Shown here: positions 55,955 through 64,000 of the stretch, piece by piece
Position numbering within the stretch: the stretch's first letter is position 1
Layout: each line of letters begins with the position of its first letter
NCBI RefSeq assembly: GCF_020731145.1
Contig: NZ_JAJFZN010000002.1
Coordinates: forward strand, 744,001-808,000
Length of the DNA: 64,000 bases
Direction of reading: 5' to 3'
Origin: Sneathiella sp. HT1-7
GTDB taxonomy: Bacteria; Pseudomonadota; Alphaproteobacteria; Sneathiellales; Sneathiellaceae
The notes under the pieces: generated by a model
Told to the model about the DNA's origin: nothing
The model's input: only the letters and a program-made list of their open reading frames with translations
Database searches by the model: none
Program-made: the position numbers and the translations under genes

Positions 55955-56389
55955 ATGATTCTGCGTTGTCTATTGATACTATTTATCTCTGCCATTGTGA
56001 CCGGATGCGAGACCAAAGATACCATCGGCGATATCAGTTATCGTCCTTATGATCCCGGCTTTCAAAGAATAACCTTGACTTCGAATGGTACTTTCGCGGA
56101 CGAAAAGACAGATATCTATATGCGCAGGCTGCAAAATGGCGGAAAACTTGAAATTTGTGGCTTTTACATCATGAGCAGCGGCATTAGCGAGGATCTGACT
56201 TCAGAATGGCTGAAATATGCGAAAGTTACCATTGATGGAGAGGAAATTGTTTCCAGCAAATTCCTACGTCCTCAGGAACGTCTTGAAGGTGCAAAATCCA
56301 ATTGTGTAGTAACGGTTAAGACATATCAGACAGATCTCTTAAAAGGAAGAATGTCGTTAAGAGGGCGTGCCATTCGCCTCCTATATTGA
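55955..56389 (+). CDS. Putative lipoprotein, first of an AT-rich trio
   Basis: 144 residues from ATG 55955 with AGGGAG seven bases upstream; much longer in-frame starts lie inside ilvD and cross the terminator, so were rejected. A lipoprotein signal is clear (lipobox VTGC, lipidated Cys18). The mature sequence is beta-rich, with cysteines in LEICGFYI and KSNCVVTV that may pair. No known domain. The TGA overlaps the next reading frame's first possible start. Base composition is more AT-rich than in the flanking ilvD and xthA regions, as for the two genes that follow, suggesting recent acquisition or fast evolution. Confidence 0.6.
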   Translation: MILRCLLILFISAIVTGCETKDTIGDISYRPYDPGFQRITLTSNGTFADEKTDIYMRRLQNGGKLEICGFYIMSSGISEDLTSEWLKYAKVTIDGEEIVSSKFLRPQERLEGAKSNCVVTVKTYQTDLLKGRMSLRGRAIRLLY

Positions 56390-57189
56390 CGAGCTTTAGT
56401 GATGGAATTTGTCATGCGGTTTTCTTTTATTCTTCTTGCAGTTTTCCCTTGTTAGCCTGCCAGACGCCCCAGAAAAGTGACCCTGTTTTTAGTGATGCAG
56501 AGGTCAAGAAGATGGTTGCACAGATGGAGCAGGACATGGACCGAGGCGAAATTCTAGACAAGCACCAAATAAATACCTTGTTAGCTAAGAAGAACGTTCG
56601 GGGTGTTACTCGAGAAGGAGAAAGAATTGGATTCTCTCTTTCAAACTGGAAACATACGCACGATTTATTCTCGTATTATTATGACGAACACGGACGGGAA
56701 ACCGGGCGCGACAAGGGAAGCTGGTGGATTGCCGGCTTGATCAAGCTTTGCGGTCGTTTGCAGAATTTTGATAATGCGAAGTCCCATTGCTTTACAGTAA
56801 CGAAACAAGATGAGGAATTTGCTTTGATCAATGGCAGGAGCGAGCAGGTTTACCGGTTTCGCGTGGTTGGCGATTATGATCCGTCAGCAAGCTCTCAGCA
56901 CAGCGCCAGCAAGAATTCGAACGACAATGAAAAGGAGCCTGGCGAATATCATATTGGCCGCCTGATCGGCTATACTCAGATTTGCGGCGAATTTCGCGGG
57001 TCCGGGGCTGACCCACAAATGATTAACACTATCAAGCAGCTGTTTGCCACTAATCCAGATTTCAAGCGCGGCTATGCCGAGTTCGACAATTTCACGGGAT
57101 TTGATTTTGTGACAGGTTTGAACAATTGCGAAGAAGTGAAAGCAGGTGTTGAGAAAATTTATAGCGCAATAAAAGCCACGGCTGGTTAG
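56386..57189 (+). CDS. Putative lipoprotein with an apparent frameshift in the signal peptide
   Basis: The long frame (about 240 residues of mature sequence starting CQTPQKSDPVF) has no proper start: within it the N-terminus would begin at TTG 56386 and read a poor leader before the lipobox LLAC (Cys25). In the +1 frame, ATG 56402 or ATG 56414 opens an ideal signal peptide (MRFSFILLAVF) that hits TAG at 56453. One extra T in the TTTT run at 56442-56445 would join the two as MRFSFILLAVFPLLAC, a canonical lipoprotein leader. So either a one-base deletion inactivates export, or the tract is variable, or there is a sequence error. The mature protein is paralogous to the next gene: GVTREGERIGFSL matches GVTRDGQRVVFSL, and KGSWWIAGLIKLCGRL matches EGLWWTEVPDRICGSL. 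Function unknown. Confidence 0.55.
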   Translation: MTSFSDGICHAVFFYSSCSFPLLACQTPQKSDPVFSDAEVKKMVAQMEQDMDRGEILDKHQINTLLAKKNVRGVTREGERIGFSLSNWKHTHDLFSYYYDEHGRETGRDKGSWWIAGLIKLCGRLQNFDNAKSHCFTVTKQDEEFALINGRSEQVYRFRVVGDYDPSASSQHSASKNSNDNEKEPGEYHIGRLIGYTQICGEFRGSGADPQMINTIKQLFATNPDFKRGYAEFDNFTGFDFVTGLNNCEEVKAGVEKIYSAIKATAG

Positions 57190-57230
57190 GGGCGATATAC
57201 GTCCGCTGTATTGATAAAGGCCCGAATATC

Positions 57231-58046
57231 TTGAGAGTCAATTTCTTCAGCTGGAAGTTTTTCCTAGTGTTTCTGATGATCTCGCTTTTGGCTTCCTGCT
57301 GGGAGGAGCATACGGACAGGAATGGCATTTCAGATAAGGTCAGCACGGCAAAATTGAAGGAAATCGCGACCTCCCTGCGGGAAAACAAATTCGAGGGGCG
57401 GTTCCTTCATGCGGAACAAATAAAGCTATTCGTCCAGGGTGCCAATATTATCGGGGTTACGAGGGACGGGCAGAGGGTTGTCTTTTCCCTGACGGAAGAG
57501 GGGGGAGAAAGGAAGAAACTAATAGCCACCTTTTATGACGAAAGCTGGATGACGATGCGCAAGAGTGAGGGGTTATGGTGGACCGAGGTGCCGGACAGGA
57601 TATGTGGTAGCCTGAAGCTTTATCGTCAGAGCCAAGAGATATCCGGATGCTATGGAGCGCTATGGGTTGAAGAAAATCTGGTCCTTGAAAATGAAGAGGG
57701 AGATCAGGTTTTCTGGGCGGTTCTGGATAGCCTCTATGATCCCTCGAGGGGCAATCGTCCTTTTCTCTTGCAGCCCAATAAGTTACACGAGAAATCGGAT
57801 GCTTGGATGTATGGTGTGACTGTCCGCTATAGCGAGATATGCAATGAATATCATCATACAGGCATAAGCGAAACCGCACTTAAGCTATATAAGGACATCT
57901 ATCGGGAGGATGCTGACTTTGCGATCGCGTACGGCCTTCTGGGTGAACCCGAGAGGCCAGGTGCTGTGGTCAAGATAGCAAACTGCCTAGAAATGCAAAA
58001 AATGGTTGAGAGATTTTCTAACTTTCATAAGGCATTGAACCAGTGA
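57231..58046 (+). CDS. Putative lipoprotein, paralogue of the preceding gene
   Basis: 271 residues from TTG 57231 with a weak ribosome binding site; a lipoprotein signal peptide (FFLVFLMISLLASC, lipidated Cys23) is evident. Central motifs GVTRDGQRVVFSL, EGLWWTEVPDRICGSL, a DSLYDPS segment and YSEICNEY align with GVTREGERIGFSL, KGSWWIAGLIKLCGRL, VGDYDPS and YTQICGEF in the upstream gene, and both end in NC-x-E followed by an amphipathic helix. They arose by tandem duplication. The conserved cysteines suggest disulphides in a periplasm-facing domain. Convergent with the next gene on the minus strand. No known family recognised. Confidence 0.65.
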   Translation: MRVNFFSWKFFLVFLMISLLASCWEEHTDRNGISDKVSTAKLKEIATSLRENKFEGRFLHAEQIKLFVQGANIIGVTRDGQRVVFSLTEEGGERKKLIATFYDESWMTMRKSEGLWWTEVPDRICGSLKLYRQSQEISGCYGALWVEENLVLENEEGDQVFWAVLDSLYDPSRGNRPFLLQPNKLHEKSDAWMYGVTVRYSEICNEYHHTGISETALKLYKDIYREDADFAIAYGLLGEPERPGAVVKIANCLEMQKMVERFSNFHKALNQ

Positions 58047-58061
58047 TGGGATTTCCACCCC

Positions 58062-58967
58062 TCACAAACTCTTCAGATATTGATGCGCTTCGGTGAGCGA
58101 AAAGCCATGGATTTCACGCACGAGCGCGGCGGCACCGATGGCGTCGCCGCGGCGGACCATCTCGCGCAGGCGATCTTCCTGGTGCTCCTTTGAGAGGGTA
58201 AGGAGCGGGGCTTCCTCCGCGGCTTCCTCCTTTTCCGTTAGGTAAATCCCGTCCAGAATAGTTTCGGCCTCCTTCAAGGGAGGGGTGAGGCGGGTTTTGC
58301 GGGTATTCCAGTCGACGCGGATGATGCCGGTCTCCGCCATTAGCTTGATGTCCGCGCCCTTGGCGTTCGCGGTCACCCCCTTGATCCATGTCGGACCCTT
58401 GCGGGTACGTTCTTTTCCAAGGGCGTCGTCGATCAGGGTAAGATCGGTCCCATAGAGCGCAATTTCAAGCCATTCTTCCTTGTGAAGATGCTTATCCTCC
58501 GGGATGTCTGGATCGGTTACCATGCGGGTTTTCTGCCCCATGAAGTGAAGCGCTCGGATCTCCCGCTTCGGAATAAAGGCGACGATGGGATCGGTGGCAT
58601 TCAAGCGGTAATCGCCGTAATTGCGAAGCTTGAGATAGAGCCCCTCCGGCGTGGCACGGAGCGTCCAGTTGCTGTGCCGCATGGCGGCGAAGGCGGAAAA
58701 AAGAAAGATAAGGCCGACCAGGGCGCAGGTCAGGACAATGAGGCCGCAAAAGATCCAGATAAAGACACCGAAAAGGAGGCTGAAAAGCGAGCCCCCGATG
58801 TTGAAGAGGCTGTTGATCCCAAGGAATGCAGGAAATCCGATGCTCCAGCCCAAGAGGAACAGCGCGACGATGAAATGCCTTTTCCAGGACATTTTTGCGG
58901 CCAAGAGCGCTGGGTTTTGCCGCGCTTCTGCCTCGGTGATCAGTTCAATATTTGCATACCGGCCCAT
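58062..58967 (-). CDS. Membrane protein with a C-terminal L7/L12-like helical motif
   Basis: 301 residues. Two or three hydrophobic segments (about residues 30-60 and 65-95) are followed by a soluble beta-rich domain (about 100-240, WTLRATPEGLYLKLRNYGDY). The C-terminal 35 residues read DRLREMVRRGDAIGAAALVREIHGFSLTEAHQYLKSL across 265-301, which resembles the ribosomal L7/L12 C-terminal helix-loop-helix pattern (I-x-LVR-x-x-x-G-x-x-L-x-EA) sometimes seen as a tail in bacterial membrane proteins. No catalytic motif is visible. Stands alone, convergent with the lipoprotein genes. Function unknown. Confidence 0.65.
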   Translation of the reverse strand: MGRYANIELITEAEARQNPALLAAKMSWKRHFIVALFLLGWSIGFPAFLGINSLFNIGGSLFSLLFGVFIWIFCGLIVLTCALVGLIFLFSAFAAMRHSNWTLRATPEGLYLKLRNYGDYRLNATDPIVAFIPKREIRALHFMGQKTRMVTDPDIPEDKHLHKEEWLEIALYGTDLTLIDDALGKERTRKGPTWIKGVTANAKGADIKLMAETGIIRVDWNTRKTRLTPPLKEAETILDGIYLTEKEEAAEEAPLLTLSKEHQEDRLREMVRRGDAIGAAALVREIHGFSLTEAHQYLKSL

Positions 58968-59030
58968 AATCCCACCTCTTCAGGCATCGAAAGGCGCAGC
59001 ATAGTCGGAAATCCTTAATATTTTTCTGAT

Positions 59031-59798
59031 CTAGTCCGCAAGATTGACCCAGATCGGCGTATGGTCGGAAGGTTTTTCCTGCCCGCGCGGGCCCTTGTCG
59101 ATGCCAACCTCCGTCATTCGGTCGGCAGCCTGTGGGGAGAGGAGGAGATGATCAATGCGGATGCCGTTATCCTTCTGCCACGCGCCGCGCTGATAGTCCC
59201 AATAGGTGTAGTTCACCTCACTCGTAAAGGCGCGATAGGCGTCGGTGTAGCCGAGATTGAGGATCTGGCGGAAGCGGTTACGGCTCTCCGGACGGGTGAG
59301 GGCGTCGCCTTCCCAGGCTTTAGGATCGTAGCAATCCTCATCCTGTGGGATGACGTTATAGTCACCGCCAAGCACAGTGGGTTCCTCCAGCGTGAGGAGG
59401 TAATTCGCACGGGTTATCAATCGGTCCATCCAGCCAAGCTTATAGGGAAATTTCTCCGTATCCGTTGGATTTCCGTTCGGCAGATAGATAGAGGCAATGC
59501 GGACATTCTCGATAGTTGCCTCGATATAGCGGGCCTGCTCGTCCGCGTCATCGCCCGGAAGGCCGCGCATCACATCCTCGATCGGGGATTTGGAAAGGAT
59601 CGCCACTCCATTATAGGTCTTCTGGCCATGGGTCTCGACATTATAGCCAAGGTCCTCCACCTCAAGCCGGGGGAAGGCATCGTCAATGACCTTCAATTCC
59701 TGCAGGCAGAGTACATCCGGGGCATAGTTTTTGAGATAATCGACAAGCCGCGGCAGGCGGGCTTTCACCGAATTGACATTCCAGCTGGCTATCTTCAT
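59031..59798 (-). CDS. xthA: Exodeoxyribonuclease III
   Basis: 255 residues with all AP-endonuclease/exonuclease III motifs: IASWNVNSVKARL at the start, LQELKV (metal-binding Glu), SIYLPNGNP, GGDYNVIP, NGIRIDHLLLSP and the C-terminal SDHTPIWVNL with the catalytic Asp-His. It cleaves abasic sites and degrades DNA 3' to 5' in base-excision repair. Encoded downstream of erpA on the same strand; a terminator lies between them. Confidence 0.95.
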   Translation of the reverse strand: MKIASWNVNSVKARLPRLVDYLKNYAPDVLCLQELKVIDDAFPRLEVEDLGYNVETHGQKTYNGVAILSKSPIEDVMRGLPGDDADEQARYIEATIENVRIASIYLPNGNPTDTEKFPYKLGWMDRLITRANYLLTLEEPTVLGGDYNVIPQDEDCYDPKAWEGDALTRPESRNRFRQILNLGYTDAYRAFTSEVNYTYWDYQRGAWQKDNGIRIDHLLLSPQAADRMTEVGIDKGPRGQEKPSDHTPIWVNLAD

Positions 59799-59810
59799 CT
59801 CTTACCCCAC

Positions 59811-59843
59811 AAAAAAGCCCGGTATTCCGCCGGGCCCTTTTTC
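59811..59843 (-). terminator. Rho-independent terminator after erpA
   Basis: GCCCGG (59817-59822) pairs with CCGGGC (59830-59835); read on the minus strand the stem is followed by six T residues. It lies between the erpA stop and the xthA start, so xthA probably has its own promoter or relies on readthrough. Confidence 0.8.
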
Positions 59844-59863
59844 TAACATTTTTAGGGAGTCAA

Positions 59864-60214
59864 TCAAATGGCAAATGACGATCCGCAGGAGCAGGACGCC
59901 GTCGCGTTGGGGTTCTTGATCTGGAATGACGCACCGATCATATCCTCGACGAAATCGATTTCTGATCCAGCGAGATACAACAGCGACATTTGGTCCACCA
60001 ACAGGGTCGCGCCCTTGTTGATGACCGCCACATCGTCCGGATTTTGCGTATCCTCCAGATCGAAGCTGTATTGAAAGCCGGAGCAGCCGCCGCCATTAAC
60101 TGCGACACGCAGCATTTTCTTGTCGGAGTTCATTTCCTCGACAATGGCATTGATCCGCTCCGCCGCCGATTCCGACAACTTGACGGGAGGCTCCATATTA
60201 TCCATGACAGACAT
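59864..60214 (-). CDS. erpA: Iron-sulphur cluster insertion protein ErpA (HesB/IscA family)
   Basis: 116 residues. The three cluster-binding cysteines are Cys44 (NGGGCSGFQY), Cys108 and Cys110 (ASCSCGSSF), with the C-x63-C-x-C spacing exactly that of A-type carriers. Core segments LSESAAERINAIV and LVDQMSLLYLAGSEIDFVE fit ErpA. It carries Fe-S clusters to apoproteins. In many alphaproteobacteria the divergent neighbours are dgt and argS; here the divergent gene is the truncated argS-like one at 60334, with no dgt between. Start could also be ATG 60205. Confidence 0.93.
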   Translation of the reverse strand: MSVMDNMEPPVKLSESAAERINAIVEEMNSDKKMLRVAVNGGGCSGFQYSFDLEDTQNPDDVAVINKGATLLVDQMSLLYLAGSEIDFVEDMIGASFQIKNPNATASCSCGSSFAI

Positions 60215-60333
60215 TGTACTTAAATTCCCAACTTACAAAGGCAACTGGCCTTCGTTATAGAGACTATATAGCAAATGATGTATTAATCCTAAGCTTGTTT
60301 GTCAATCGACGGTCCGGAAAAGTAATCTGTATT

Positions 60334-61347
60334 ATGTCCATGAGTTATATAACCCAGGCCCGCGCGGCGCTGAATGCCGTCCTTGATACGGTTGAGTTTC
60401 CCGATGCGGCGTTGAGGCGGCAGATAACCTTACGACCACCGAAAGAAAAGTCCTATGGTGATTTATCATCAAATTCATTTATATTATTGAAATCAATAGA
60501 AAATATTGACTTTAATTTACTCTCACAAAAACTCCGTGACGCCTTTGAGAAATTGGACGGTATTGCCGATGTCCGACTGGAGGATAATGGCTATCTCAAT
60601 CTTAAATACAATATTATTTACTGGTTAAATAATATAATACCGGTTTTTGAAGAAGGGCCGGAATTTGGTATTAGGGGGATGGCGTCGAAAAAATACACTT
60701 TTCCAGCGCCGGAAGAAGTTGTCGATCTTGCGAGTTACCGTCAGCAGGTGAATTTCGAGGCCTTGTCGCGGATCGCAACAACGGTGGGCGCATATGTTGA
60801 ACGAGAAACCAGGCCTGCGCGGGAAGCTGAGGGATTTCCCCATACCACGGCAATAGCAAAATGCACCGAGGCAAAGGCGCGCTTTGCCGTTCTGGCCAAT
60901 CCGCCCGGGTTTATCGACGCGTTCAGCCCTATTTTGGCCATAGACCGGCGTTATGATAATCCTGTTTTCGCGATACCTTACGCCCGCCTGATGCTGCAAC
61001 GGCTCGGCGCGACGGCGGAGGCAGCGGAAACCGGGGTGAGTGATGGGGTGGATATGTCAGTTTTAGTATTGCCGGAGGAAGTGATGCTGGCGCGGCAGCT
61101 GAATGACTGGCCACTCGCGCTCGAACAGGCTTTAGGTAAGCGAGATGCTTTTTATCTCGCCTCTTTCCTCCAGGAGCTTTCCTTGCTATTTTTCCGTCTT
61201 GTAGAGCGAGTGCATCCCATATCGTCAAACTATCTGATGGCGGAGGCGGAGGGATCGGCGCGGCATTGCTTGTTGGGCGCGCTCGACAGAATTTTAAGCG
61301 GCGGCGTGGGGCTTCTCGGCGTTGATACAGTAAGGGAGTATGGTTAA
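60334..61347 (+). CDS. ArgS-like protein lacking the aminoacylation core
   Basis: 337 residues from ATG 60334 (60340 also possible; no strong ribosome binding site). Residues about 1-100 correspond to the N-terminal additional domain of arginyl-tRNA synthetase (ITLRPPKEKSYGDLSSNSF, ADVRLEDNGYLNLKYN). Residues about 210-337 correspond to the anticodon-binding DALR domain (RYDNPVFAIPYARLM, RQLNDWPLALEQALGKRDAF, ILSGGVGLLGV at the end). The Rossmann catalytic domain with the HIGH and KMSK motifs, some 320 residues in normal ArgS, is missing and replaced by about 105 residues of unrelated sequence. It sits at the usual argS position, before the SPOR and nagZ genes. It cannot charge tRNA, so another argS must exist elsewhere. 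Tail end of the frame is open and in phase, arguing for a retained product rather than a random remnant. Confidence 0.75.
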   Translation: MSMSYITQARAALNAVLDTVEFPDAALRRQITLRPPKEKSYGDLSSNSFILLKSIENIDFNLLSQKLRDAFEKLDGIADVRLEDNGYLNLKYNIIYWLNNIIPVFEEGPEFGIRGMASKKYTFPAPEEVVDLASYRQQVNFEALSRIATTVGAYVERETRPAREAEGFPHTTAIAKCTEAKARFAVLANPPGFIDAFSPILAIDRRYDNPVFAIPYARLMLQRLGATAEAAETGVSDGVDMSVLVLPEEVMLARQLNDWPLALEQALGKRDAFYLASFLQELSLLFFRLVERVHPISSNYLMAEAEGSARHCLLGALDRILSGGVGLLGVDTVREYG

Positions 61348-62223
61348 GTGACTGGCGAAGATGACTACCTGGACGACGACTTCTACGATGGTGATGACGA
61401 ACCCCGCTTCAGCCGCAAGAAATGGATCGGCGGTATTCTAGCCATTCTGATTGTCGGCGGTTTCGGTGTCGGTATTTGGTACGCCTATGATCAGGGCGTA
61501 AAAAAAGGCGTTCAACTTGCCCCGCCTATCATTAGCGCCGACACATCGCCCGTCAAGGTCAAGCCCGACGATCCGGGCGGGATGGACATTCCCAATCAGG
61601 ATAAAGAGGTTTTCAGCGTTCTCCAGTCTGGCGATGCGCCGGAAAAGGTGGAGAAGCTGATGCCGCCGCCGGAAGACGCGATCAAGGATGACGTGGCCGA
61701 ACAAGCGGCCGATGCCGCGGTGAGTACGGCGGAAAAGGCCGCCGACGACAGTAAGCTTGAAACCCTGATCGAGAAGGCGACGAAAGACGCTCCGTCGGCA
61801 GCGGAGGCAGCATCGAAGGCGGCGAACACGTCAGGAGCAAGCGAGAGCGCGACAGTTGCGGTCAAAAAGCCGGAAGTTGTTGTCGAGAAAGTTGCCCCTG
61901 AAGTGGAAGAGAAAAAGGTCGAAGTGGTGGCCGCTCCGGTTCCTAAAAAGGTTGAGGAGCCTAAAGCAAGCGGCCCTCGCTATCGGGTGCAGGTTGGCTC
62001 TTTTCGCTCTGCCGACGCGGCGGAGAAACAATGGTCAATGCTTTCTTCCAAGCATAAATCACTTCTCTCCGGCCTTAGCTATCGGGTGCAGGATGTCGAT
62101 GTGAAGGACAAAGGCACATATTACCGTCTGCAACTCGGGGCTTATGGCAGCCGGGATAGTGCGAACAAGCTCTGTAATGATTTAAAGGCGCAAAAGCAGG
62201 ATTGTCTCGTTGTCAGCGGCTGA
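61348..62223 (+). CDS. SPOR-domain membrane protein
   Basis: 291 residues, GTG 61348 directly after the previous stop with AAGGGAG upstream. Architecture: acidic cytoplasmic N-terminus (residues 1-28), one membrane helix (WIGGILAILIVGGFGVGIWYA, about 29-48), a long Ala/Glu/Lys-rich periplasmic linker, and a C-terminal SPOR domain (RYRVQVGSFRSADAAEKQW from about 211; YYRLQLGAYGSRDSANKLC repeat from about 254). SPOR domains bind denuded glycan strands at the division septum. In alphaproteobacteria this gene lies between argS and nagZ, as here. Its stop overlaps the nagZ start. Confidence 0.93.
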   Translation: MTGEDDYLDDDFYDGDDEPRFSRKKWIGGILAILIVGGFGVGIWYAYDQGVKKGVQLAPPIISADTSPVKVKPDDPGGMDIPNQDKEVFSVLQSGDAPEKVEKLMPPPEDAIKDDVAEQAADAAVSTAEKAADDSKLETLIEKATKDAPSAAEAASKAANTSGASESATVAVKKPEVVVEKVAPEVEEKKVEVVAAPVPKKVEEPKASGPRYRVQVGSFRSADAAEKQWSMLSSKHKSLLSGLSYRVQDVDVKDKGTYYRLQLGAYGSRDSANKLCNDLKAQKQDCLVVSG

Positions 62224-63250
62224 TCTATCAAAATGCCGCTCTGTCATTTTTGGCTGCGAGGGGACTAAACTTTCCGCGGCGGAGAAGAAATTTTTCAAGG
62301 CGGAGCAGCCTTTCGGATTTATCCTTTTTGCCCGCAATGTGGAAACGCCGAAACAGCTCAGGAAACTGGTGAAAGCCCTGCGTACGGCGGTTGGCCGACC
62401 CGATGCGCCGGTCCTGATCGATCAAGAAGGGGGGCGGGTGCAGCGCTTGCGCGGCCCCCACTGGTTCGAGGCGAAGCCCTTTGGGTATTTCGGCGAACTC
62501 TATCAGAACAACCCGGAGAAGGCGATTGAGACCCTGCGCCTTACGACGCGGTTGATCGCGGCGGACTTGCAAGATGCGGGGATCACTGTTGATTGCACGC
62601 CTTGTCTAGATCTTTCCCTGCCGGAAACGGTGGATGCTATCGGGAACCGCGCTTTTGCGGAGGATCCGCAAGTTGTTGCCCGCCTCGGTGCGGTAGTCGC
62701 GGAAGAAATGCTGACCGCCGGGATCATTCCGGTGATCAAGCATATGCCGGGCCATGGCCGCGCAACGGTGGATAGTCACCACACGCTACCCCATGTCGAG
62801 ACAGCACCGGAGACTTTGCAGGAAACCGATTTCCTCCCTTTCAAGGCGCTCTCTGTGTTACCGTGGGGAATGACCAGCCATATCGTGTTTGAGGCCATTG
62901 ACGCGGACCATCCTGCGACCCAGTCAGCGAAGATTATCAAGGATATTATCCGGGGCGAGATAGGTTTCAATGGCCTGTTGCTAACCGATGACCTCAATAT
63001 GGAGGCTCTGTCGGGCAGTCTGCCAGAACGGGCTACTGCCGCGCTGGAGGCCGGAGTGGATATCGTGCTGCATTGTTCGGGCGTACTCGCGGAAATGCAG
63101 GACGTCGCGGCCGTTTGCCCGCCTTTGACGGAGGAAACGCAAACTCGCATTGCCCTTGGCAACCGTGTGTTCGATCACGCACCTGACAAGTTAGATGCAA
63201 TGGCGGACCTAGCACAGCTAAACAAACTTTTTGAAACGGACGCCGCCTGA
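62210..63250 (+). CDS. nagZ: Beta-N-acetylhexosaminidase NagZ
   Basis: 346 residues. The GH3 NagZ signature is KHMPGHGRATVDSH (around residue 177), including the catalytic His; the nucleophile Asp is in LLTDDLNMEALSG (around 262). The DQEGGRVQRL motif is at about residue 65. The enzyme removes GlcNAc from anhydromuropeptides in cell-wall recycling. Its only plausible start is TTG 62210, overlapping the SPOR gene by 14 bases. The gene order SPOR - nagZ is the normal one. Confidence 0.93.
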   Translation: MSAADLSKCRSVIFGCEGTKLSAAEKKFFKAEQPFGFILFARNVETPKQLRKLVKALRTAVGRPDAPVLIDQEGGRVQRLRGPHWFEAKPFGYFGELYQNNPEKAIETLRLTTRLIAADLQDAGITVDCTPCLDLSLPETVDAIGNRAFAEDPQVVARLGAVVAEEMLTAGIIPVIKHMPGHGRATVDSHHTLPHVETAPETLQETDFLPFKALSVLPWGMTSHIVFEAIDADHPATQSAKIIKDIIRGEIGFNGLLLTDDLNMEALSGSLPERATAALEAGVDIVLHCSGVLAEMQDVAAVCPPLTEETQTRIALGNRVFDHAPDKLDAMADLAQLNKLFETDAA

Positions 63251-63936
63251 TGGATTTTGGCAATATTCTCTACCAGATTTCTGTCTGGATTATCCCGGCG
63301 CTTACCGCCATCACTCTGCATGAGGCTGCGCATGGCTTTGTTGCCTGGAAACTCGGCGATGATACGGCGAAGCGGCAGGGACGGGTGACTTTCAATCCAT
63401 TCAAACATATCGATCTTATGGGAACGATCATCATTCCGGGATTCCTGTTGTTGATCAAGGCTCCGTTCCTGTTTGGTTATGCGAAGCCGGTGCCGGTGAA
63501 CTTCGGCCGCTTGGGTAATCCACGCCGTGATATGATCTGGGTGGCGCTGGCCGGGCCGGGGATGAATTTTCTGCTCGCCTTCCTCTTTGCACTTGGGATT
63601 CATCTTCTGCCGCTTTTTCCGGGAGAAGTCGCTCAATGGCTCGCACATAACTGTAAAAATGGTATTATTCTCAATGTTGTATTGGGCGTTTTTAACCTAC
63701 TTCCGCTGCCGCCGCTCGATGGCGGGCGGGTCGCGGTTGGAATCCTGCCGGATAGTCTTGCCCTGCCACTCGCCCGGCTGGAACGCTATGGCTTCTTCAT
63801 CCTGATCGGCGTGATTTTTCTTCTTCCCATGATCACGCGTCAGCTCGGCATGGAGGTCGATTTGCTGAACTGGCTGTTCACCGGGCCCATCAGCTATGTG
63901 GTCAATCTGATTGCCAATCTGGCCGGTCTGGGATAG
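63250..63936 (+). CDS. Site-2 protease family (M50) membrane metalloprotease
   Basis: 228 residues, ATG overlapping the nagZ stop by one base. The zinc-binding motif is HEAAH (His24, Glu25, His28, in ITLHEAAHGFVAWKLGD), and the third ligand Asp lies in LPLPPLDGGRVAVG (around residue 157), as in rhomboid-unrelated S2P proteases. About six membrane segments fit the small group III site-2 proteases. It cuts membrane-embedded segments of substrate proteins. The last 64 bases of the window hold no complete gene; a GTG at 63986 (VDKGS) might be the start of scpA, which normally follows, but five codons are not enough to say. Confidence 0.88.
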   Translation: MDFGNILYQISVWIIPALTAITLHEAAHGFVAWKLGDDTAKRQGRVTFNPFKHIDLMGTIIIPGFLLLIKAPFLFGYAKPVPVNFGRLGNPRRDMIWVALAGPGMNFLLAFLFALGIHLLPLFPGEVAQWLAHNCKNGIILNVVLGVFNLLPLPPLDGGRVAVGILPDSLALPLARLERYGFFILIGVIFLLPMITRQLGMEVDLLNWLFTGPISYVVNLIANLAGLG

Positions 63937-64000
63937 GCTTTTGCAATGCTGACAGGCTCACAATTTGCAATAGAGGCGGCGCGCCGTGGATAAGGGATCC

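Follow-up and report, generated by a model that had tools for sequence, protein, structure and literature searches.

The window, a 64,000-nucleotide stretch of the genome of Sneathiella sp. HT1-7 (positions 744,001 to 808,000 of contig NZ_JAJFZN010000002.1), encodes a 337-amino-acid protein that is almost certainly the native alphaproteobacterial arginyl-tRNA synthetase (ArgS), retired in place and kept under selection. We consider the chances about even that the retired enzyme has also been turned into a noncatalytic adaptor or regulator that binds tRNA-Arg. Its ancestry, the loss of the catalytic motifs, the presence of the gene in two genera, purifying selection, and the newly fixed residues were all computed directly.

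A noncatalytic remnant of ArgS at the usual argS site

The remnant (60334..61347, plus strand) is a single intact ORF with an ATG start; it has matches in Pfam, in NCBIfam and to a profile of native ArgS, and it is kept across the genus. In Pfam, residues 10-91 match Arg_tRNA_synt_N (26.7 bits; the cut-off is 21.5) and residues 230-334 match DALR_1 (26.0 bits; the cut-off is 22.3), and there is no match to tRNA-synt_1d at E = 10. This agrees with the initial annotation, which described ArgS N-terminal and C-terminal anticodon-binding domains without a catalytic domain. Among the 21 members of the family in the genus, at E = 0.01, Arg_tRNA_synt_N matches 16 and DALR_1 matches 20, and tRNA-synt_1d is listed for none. 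Viewed as a potential ArgS ligase, the protein has both end domains and descent from ArgS, but it has neither the catalytic domain nor HIGH.

We divide the gene into four parts, all on the plus strand. The N-terminal (D-arm) domain (residues 1-117; 60334..60684) keeps G42-D43, N47, Y87, and N89. It is followed by a linker of about 50 residues (118-168; 60685..60837), by a segment that corresponds to the stem-contact segment after KMSK in native ArgS (residues 171-217; 60844..60984), and by a DALR domain of the anticodon-binding type (residues 218-337; 60985..61344). A structure prediction built from only three alignment rows had a pLDDT of 41.8 and was set aside. The isoelectric point is below 6 in 7 of the 9 fragments tested, but this says little, because it is also below 6 in 3 of 4 native ArgS (and 6.1 in the fourth).

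Upstream, erpA (an iron-sulfur carrier; 59864..60214, minus strand; named by eye from the ORF list) is divergently transcribed, and the 119 bases in between (60215..60333; GC 0.36) have no Rfam match above the gathering score. Downstream, a SPOR-domain protein (61348..62223, plus strand; from the ORF list) starts with GTG straight after the stop codon of the remnant, and nagZ (beta-hexosaminidase; 62210..63250, plus strand; named by the initial annotation and by eye, from the ORF and its homologs) is next in the row. The proposal that this place, beside erpA and before SPOR-nagZ, is the usual site of argS in Alphaproteobacteria is borne out by three relatives with the native type of enzyme, which have a full argS there (L105-L107, by motif scan). 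Within the genus, erpA is present in 20 of 21 loci, this one included; the remaining locus is cut (L012, which has no erpA on its contig).

We searched 56000-64000 for structural RNAs with Rfam and obtained three matches, none of them near its gathering score. In a consensus scan of 59780-61400, we found 2 promoter-like sites where 1.9 would be expected by chance, and 5 terminator-like sites where 1.7 would be. The GC content is 0.40 in the first third of the gene (60334-60669) versus 0.56 for the window, and some close relatives have a lower GC3 in the N-terminal part, although the genus as a whole does not. Further upstream in the window, two adjoining ORFs (56386-57189 and 57231-58046) look by eye like related lipoproteins, with similar layouts and a Cys after a hydrophobic start.

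The remnant descends from native ArgS

For comparison, we defined native ArgS as the 24 of 32 loci from outside the genus (L023-L031 and L060-L082) whose longest ORF carries NPTGP..HxGH. Using hhalign, a profile of 21 fragments gives an end-to-end match of 339 columns to the profile of these 24 proteins (E = 3.9e-29). When it is compared to a profile of 25 E. coli-type ArgS, the two top matches are separate pieces (E = 4.2e-6 and 5.4e-6).

We also built an unrooted tree of 55 sequences: 20 fragments, the homologous protein from the sister genus (G024), 24 native ArgS, and 10 E. coli-type ArgS. The fragments and the G024 protein form a split with a UFBoot support of 100, and the E. coli-type ArgS form another, also with 100. 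If the tree is rooted on the E. coli type, then the fragments nest inside native ArgS: splits with support of 98 and 97 leave out one and two native sequences, respectively. The remaining nesting splits within native ArgS have support of 31-63. Because the split for the exact sister has a support of only 44 (unrooted), we claim no sister group for the fragments. The profile match, the tree, and the locus agree that the protein is what remains of the native argS, still in its original position, as had been supposed.

A few sequences needed special handling. Rows L108-L111 and L174 are not in the analyses. L013, which is ended by a contig edge, was left out of the codon, joint and shuffle analyses. 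L019 (from G008) was used from the start of its match, and L005 kept an N-terminal extension of 13 residues (354 amino acids).

A second ArgS of the E. coli type

The genome, which is 99.96% complete, holds one match to the catalytic domain of ArgS: a complete ORF of 589 amino acids on another contig. With NVAK..HVGH and no match to the KMSK pattern, this is an E. coli-type enzyme. The second argS of different ancestry that the initial annotation had anticipated is thus present. NVAK..HVGH was found in 21 of the 22 ArgS loci that were read from the genus (including this strain), and the ArgS frame is at least 592 amino acids in 21 of the 22 found (again including this strain). The 22nd of the loci that were read, from G008, is broken: its only full ArgS match (L059) is split over two frames, one of which contains a stop. 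The fragment from the same genome (L019) has no clear start codon. Our guess is that both are sequencing errors.

In a sample of 385 genomes from the class, 57 rows (including this strain) have a match to PF00750 of over 200 bits, which we took as E. coli-type ArgS. Most of the other genomes have weak matches to PF00750, as the native NPTGP..HxGH type gives. The strong matches are scattered through the Alphaproteobacteria, which may reflect repeated replacement of native ArgS. In a tree of 17 E. coli-type ArgS (3 of 20 rows were skipped), the full ArgS of the sister genus (G024) groups with seven ArgS from Sneathiella, with a local support of 0.995. The simplest account is a single replacement before the two genera parted.

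Besides G024, we obtained six nagZ-region loci from genomes outside the genus that have a strong PF00750 match. All six were scanned for motifs, and ORF lists were made for three. Five of these genomes, from three other families, have no argS signature at the native site (L099-L102 and L104; by motif scan alone for L101 and L102), and the sixth locus (L103) ends too early. At this site, all five have dgt, which was recognized by eye in L104 and from its motif in the other four; in some related genomes, dgt lies between erpA and SPOR. We considered whether dgt was lost from Sneathiella along with a rearrangement of the locus and rejected this, because dgt was found away from the locus in all seven genomes of Sneathiella and the sister genus that we searched (at 75606-76856 of contig C1 in this strain).

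Distribution of the remnant

When we searched 60 relatives with the window protein, we found homologs of the fragment in 20 of the 23 other genomes from the genus, with the same layout and at the same place. The three genomes without it (G005, G009, and G016) are only 66, 65 and 56% complete; two of them have no match to nagZ, and the third has nagZ at the start of a contig. None of the 21 loci in the genus has a stop within the match, although one of them is ended by a contig edge, and 14 residues are invariant over the 21 members. Outside the genus, the matches are in ArgS-sized frames (at least 449 amino acids) and in two short frames (140 and 267 amino acids), which we took as pieces of ArgS.

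We then searched 54 genomes with the 21-member profile: the 52 rows from outside the genus with strong PF00750 matches, G024, and G068. There were matches in 13 genomes, and all of these lie within frames of at least 569 amino acids except for the one from the sister genus. The match in G024 sits between SPOR and erpA and corresponds to a divergent protein of 329 amino acids (we chose its start codon by hand). In a search of 160 genomes from the phylum, the score was 477.5 bits for the gene in the window itself and 76.9 bits for the match that ranked second. Among the matches listed, two are in frames of under 400 amino acids (G406 and G531); they cover the C-terminal part only, and in both cases the contig starts no more than about 650 bases away. 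A search of plasmids gave a single matching record, which is an annotated argS.

The fragment and a full ArgS occur together in 19 of the 23 other genomes of the genus, in this strain, and in the sister genus. In G002 (91% complete), the fragment is split over two contigs and there is no match to the catalytic domain of ArgS, which is probably due to a gap in the assembly.

The remnant evolves quickly but under purifying selection

Using codon models, we estimated omega as 0.276 for 20 fragments and 0.302 for seven close fragments. Since deep divergence saturates synonymous sites, the seven close members are the better guide, and for them omega = 1 is worse by 149 lnL units. The initial annotation had argued that an intact ORF with conserved ends implies selection, and this estimate supports it. 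With another argS in the genome and no sign of a pseudogene under relaxed selection, neither of the two findings that had been expected to overturn the idea of a retained remnant was obtained.

For the same seven genomes, omega is 0.057 for ArgS and 0.028 for ErpA, so omega is roughly five times as high for the fragment as for ArgS. In other words, it is evolving fast under purifying selection. The eight farthest members are just 30-35% identical to the window protein, while their ErpA proteins are 73-82% identical to that of this strain, and the ArgS proteins of the seven that are in the ArgS set are 72-75% identical. (The codon set for ArgS included 19 of the 24 genomes from the genus: the gene is broken in G008, there was no match in G002 or G016, and G005 and G009 were left out.) By region, omega is 0.328 for the N-terminal part, 0.321 for the middle, 0.127 for residues 171-222, and 0.307 for the C-terminal part. 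Constraint is strongest in the post-KMSK segment rather than in the parts that correspond to the D-arm and anticodon domains.

Of the 403 Arg codons in 20 fragments, 268 are AGA, AGG, CGA or CGG, versus 276 of 706 in 19 ArgS genes from the genus (L013 was left out). Seen against ArgS alone, the heavier use of these codons may reflect low expression only.

What is left of the catalytic core

The initial annotation described about 105 residues of unrelated sequence between the two ends, and this does not hold: about 50 of these residues derive from just after KMSK, and another 24 or so are possibly a dead HIGH helix. Taken by themselves, residues 166-217 match the stretch of native ArgS that follows KMSK (E = 2.7e-6), with a score of 41.9, compared to a maximum of 21.9 from 100 column shuffles; residues 171-205 alone have no significant match. 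In hhalign, the two ends match native ArgS with E = 5.3e-20 (residues 25-112) and E = 1.4e-11 (residues 218-337), and each scores above all 100 column shuffles. Given the match for residues 166-217, the part with no significant counterpart in native ArgS shrinks to about 50 residues (118-168).

On score alone, this linker is not significant: residues 113-165 score 16.5 (the maximum from 100 shuffles is 18.3), and residues 119-160 score 16.3 (maximum 21.3). The best place for residues 113-165 is the helix straight after HIGH (24 residues). In 150 further shuffles, 7 overlapped the same place and 5 reached a score of 16.5. HMMER places this stretch on HIGH in the ArgRS of P. horikoshii and human, and our joint alignment also places it on HIGH; in the end-to-end match from hhalign, the middle is scattered and is not placed on HIGH. 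Because of the best placement just after HIGH and the placement by HMMER, residues 113-165 are likely to be a dead HIGH unit. The linker would then comprise a degenerate HIGH loop and helix (HVGHxR changed to DLxSxR), followed by the deletion point.

At both places of the HIGH histidines, His is absent from all 20 fragments and present in all 24 native ArgS. The fragments instead have D (19) or G (1) at position 131 and S (14), A (3), G (1), E (1), or N (1) at position 134. Relative to native ArgS, the deletion spans about 250 codons.

These results suggest the following history. Before Sneathiella and its sister genus parted, their ancestor would have acquired an E. coli-type argS, which would now be responsible for aminoacylation. 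A deletion of about 250 codons in the native argS would have followed, starting after the HIGH region and ending beyond KMSK, and its HIGH residues would have been lost as well. The D-arm domain, the stem-contact segment, and the DALR domain would have been kept and refitted.

Does the remnant bind tRNA-Arg?

The fragments keep 12 of the 35 positions that are conserved in the N-terminal domain of native ArgS, 4 of 28 in the HIGH unit, 1 of 6 in the link, 11 of 28 in the post-KMSK segment, and 13 of 46 in the DALR domain. Since so few of the positions in the N-terminal and DALR domains are kept, tRNA binding may have changed or gone. Conversely, of 72 positions that are conserved among the fragments, 34 differ from the native consensus. 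The newly fixed residues in 171-222 include C177, F193, S198, P199, Y207, and P215, and the DALR part has gained SLLFF and SSxYL.

In the E. coli enzyme, the pocket that binds A20 of tRNA-Arg is described as F36, Q40, A78, F82, and N84, with N84 being central to the recognition of A20 (PMC8975779). Mapped by motif, N84 corresponds to N89 of the remnant, which is Asn in all 20 fragments and in the sister genus, and F82 corresponds to Y87, which is Tyr in 17 of 20. The residues aligned to F36 are W or Y in 16 of 20 fragments, those aligned to Q40 are C or S in 19 of 20, and those aligned to A78 are E (8), S (6), or A (6). At these five places, the residues of native ArgS are H, A/S/T, A, F, and N; F36 and Q40 of the E. 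coli enzyme have no counterpart in native ArgS or in the fragments. ArgRS enzymes with a poorly discernible GDYQ motif are described as accepting U, C or A at position 20 (PMC8975779), so the kept Asn does not prove that A20 is read.

We read the tRNA genes of this genome with ARAGORN, starting from 47 Rfam matches. The four kinds of tRNA-Arg that we found (ACG, CCG, CCU, and UCU) all have GGA in the D-loop, that is, A20 by our numbering. Among the tRNA genes of this genome, there was no tRNA-Arg that lacks A20 and would be unreadable by the new ArgS.

From the kept Asn, the aromatic residue, and the two-domain frame, we infer that the remnant would hold tRNA-Arg by the D-arm. Weighing the residues on both sides, we judge that binding of tRNA-Arg may equally prove right or wrong. 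If it does bind, it would do so chiefly via the D-arm pocket, and it could serve as a regulator or adaptor, much as DALRD3 presents tRNA-Arg to METTL2. The changed positions in the DALR domain, together with the constrained post-KMSK segment, suggest a changed contact there, but a protein partner would fit equally well.

This brings us to the most serious alternative, which is that the remnant no longer binds tRNA and that its fold is reused for a protein-protein role, such as a subunit or a scaffold. The number of new conserved positions (34 of 72), the strong constraint on residues 171-222 with their newly fixed residues, and the new SLLFF and SSxYL in the DALR part speak for this scenario. 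But the Asn and the aromatic residue of the D-arm pocket would not be expected to persist in a protein that does not bind RNA, and we consider a protein-protein role less probable, though credible.

Alternatives to the proposed tRNA-Arg-binding adaptor

Another potential role is as an accessory subunit that acts in trans with the new ArgS and helps it to hold tRNA-Arg. This could explain why the fragment and the full ArgS are usually found together. However, G002 has the fragment and no ArgS match (perhaps because of the assembly gap), and nearly all of the ArgS frames in the genus are of full length (at least 592 amino acids in 21 of 22). Also, the GGA in the D-loops of all four kinds of tRNA-Arg suits an E. 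coli-type ArgS, and in the search of 54 other genomes, every match except the one from the sister genus lay in an ArgS-sized frame. We think that an accessory subunit is improbable.

In all 20 loci with the 3' end of the gene (out of 21 in the genus, including this one), the start of SPOR lies 0, -1, or -4 bases from the stop codon of the fragment. In principle, the ORF could be kept only for translational coupling to SPOR and nagZ and not for its protein. This is very unlikely, because the constraint is at the level of the protein (omega = 0.30, with omega = 1 rejected, and 14 invariant residues over 21 members) and because genomes that lack argS at the site keep SPOR anyway (L099, L100, and L104).

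The best NCBIfam model for the window protein is NF045898 (NrtL, "ArgS-related anticodon-binding protein"), which it matches from end to end, and 20 of the 21 members match this model at E = 0.001. NrtL is known from Actinobacteria. Judging from the length and name of the model, it resembles the remnant in size (327 positions) and in having the ends of ArgS without the catalytic core, so the fragment could be an NrtL that was acquired from elsewhere. But the score of 62.9 bits is far under the cut-off of 340, which no protein in the 385 genomes of the class sample exceeds, and the fragment is no closer to the model than ordinary ArgS are: the native ArgS of three genomes score more for each listed half (88.1-107.8 and 68.1-78.9 bits). 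Furthermore, TIGR00456, the model for plain argS, matches all 21 members, and the position of the gene and the tree point to native ArgS. We rejected membership in NrtL as highly improbable.

Finally, although the gene evolves faster than ArgS and the G008 member lacks a clear start codon, we rejected a decaying pseudogene or an assembly error, which has scarcely any probability left given the shared layout and place, the 21 loci without an internal stop, and an omega of 0.30.

Comparison with other proteins derived from synthetases

The remnant shares with native alphaproteobacterial ArgS its ancestry, its place in the genome, the N-terminal domain, the post-KMSK segment, and the DALR domain. 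It differs in lacking about 250 catalytic residues and KMSK, in its replaced HIGH residues, and in many refixed positions. Contrary to the initial annotation, which knew of no such design from ArgS, there are precedents in NrtL and in human DALRD3. In the open-access literature, among the matches listed, we found no paper on NrtL with arginyl-tRNA synthetase and none that names NrtL; similarly, judging by titles and the starts of abstracts, the matches listed for ArgS-like or truncated ArgRS proteins or for the argS of Sneathiella included nothing on such a fragment.

DALRD3 of vertebrates is described as having the DALR domain of ArgRS without the catalytic motif, alongside working ArgRS enzymes (PMC7237682). 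Its partner is METTL2, and its specificity for tRNA-Arg (CCU and UCU) was measured (PMC7237682). Like DALRD3, the fragment has a DALR domain, lacks the catalytic domain, and exists beside a complete ArgRS gene. In contrast, DALRD3 is eukaryotic, with METTL2 as its partner and a measured specificity, whereas for the Sneathiella protein the putative binding of tRNA-Arg is suggested indirectly, by the kept Asn of the pocket. The two proteins appear to have separate origins.

Other proteins with new jobs are also derived from synthetases. HisZ is one such protein, and it corresponds to a catalytic part. GluQ-RS is likewise described as the catalytic part of a synthetase, while SLIMP, a relative of SerRS, is described as having kept tRNA binding without aminoacylation (PMC9437257). 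Unlike HisZ and GluQ-RS, the Sneathiella remnant consists only of noncatalytic parts, and unlike all three, it is the native gene itself, displaced, and not an additional copy. What is new here is that, in two genera, a displaced native argS has stayed in its original position and been refitted.

It is conceivable, if somewhat short of probable, that a synthetase displaced by a foreign gene gave up catalysis in its own place and now serves an entire bacterial family as a regulator or adaptor dedicated to binding tRNA-Arg, a counterpart of DALRD3 that arose from a retired enzyme and not from a duplicate. In five genomes from three other families with a strong match to E. coli-type ArgS, the native site has no argS signature, whereas in Sneathiella the old gene stayed, became noncatalytic, and was refitted. 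Since both states can be compared and outgroups are available, this is a testable case of what the noncatalytic parts of a synthetase do alone, and it bears on whether bacteria have tRNA-Arg adaptors like DALRD3.
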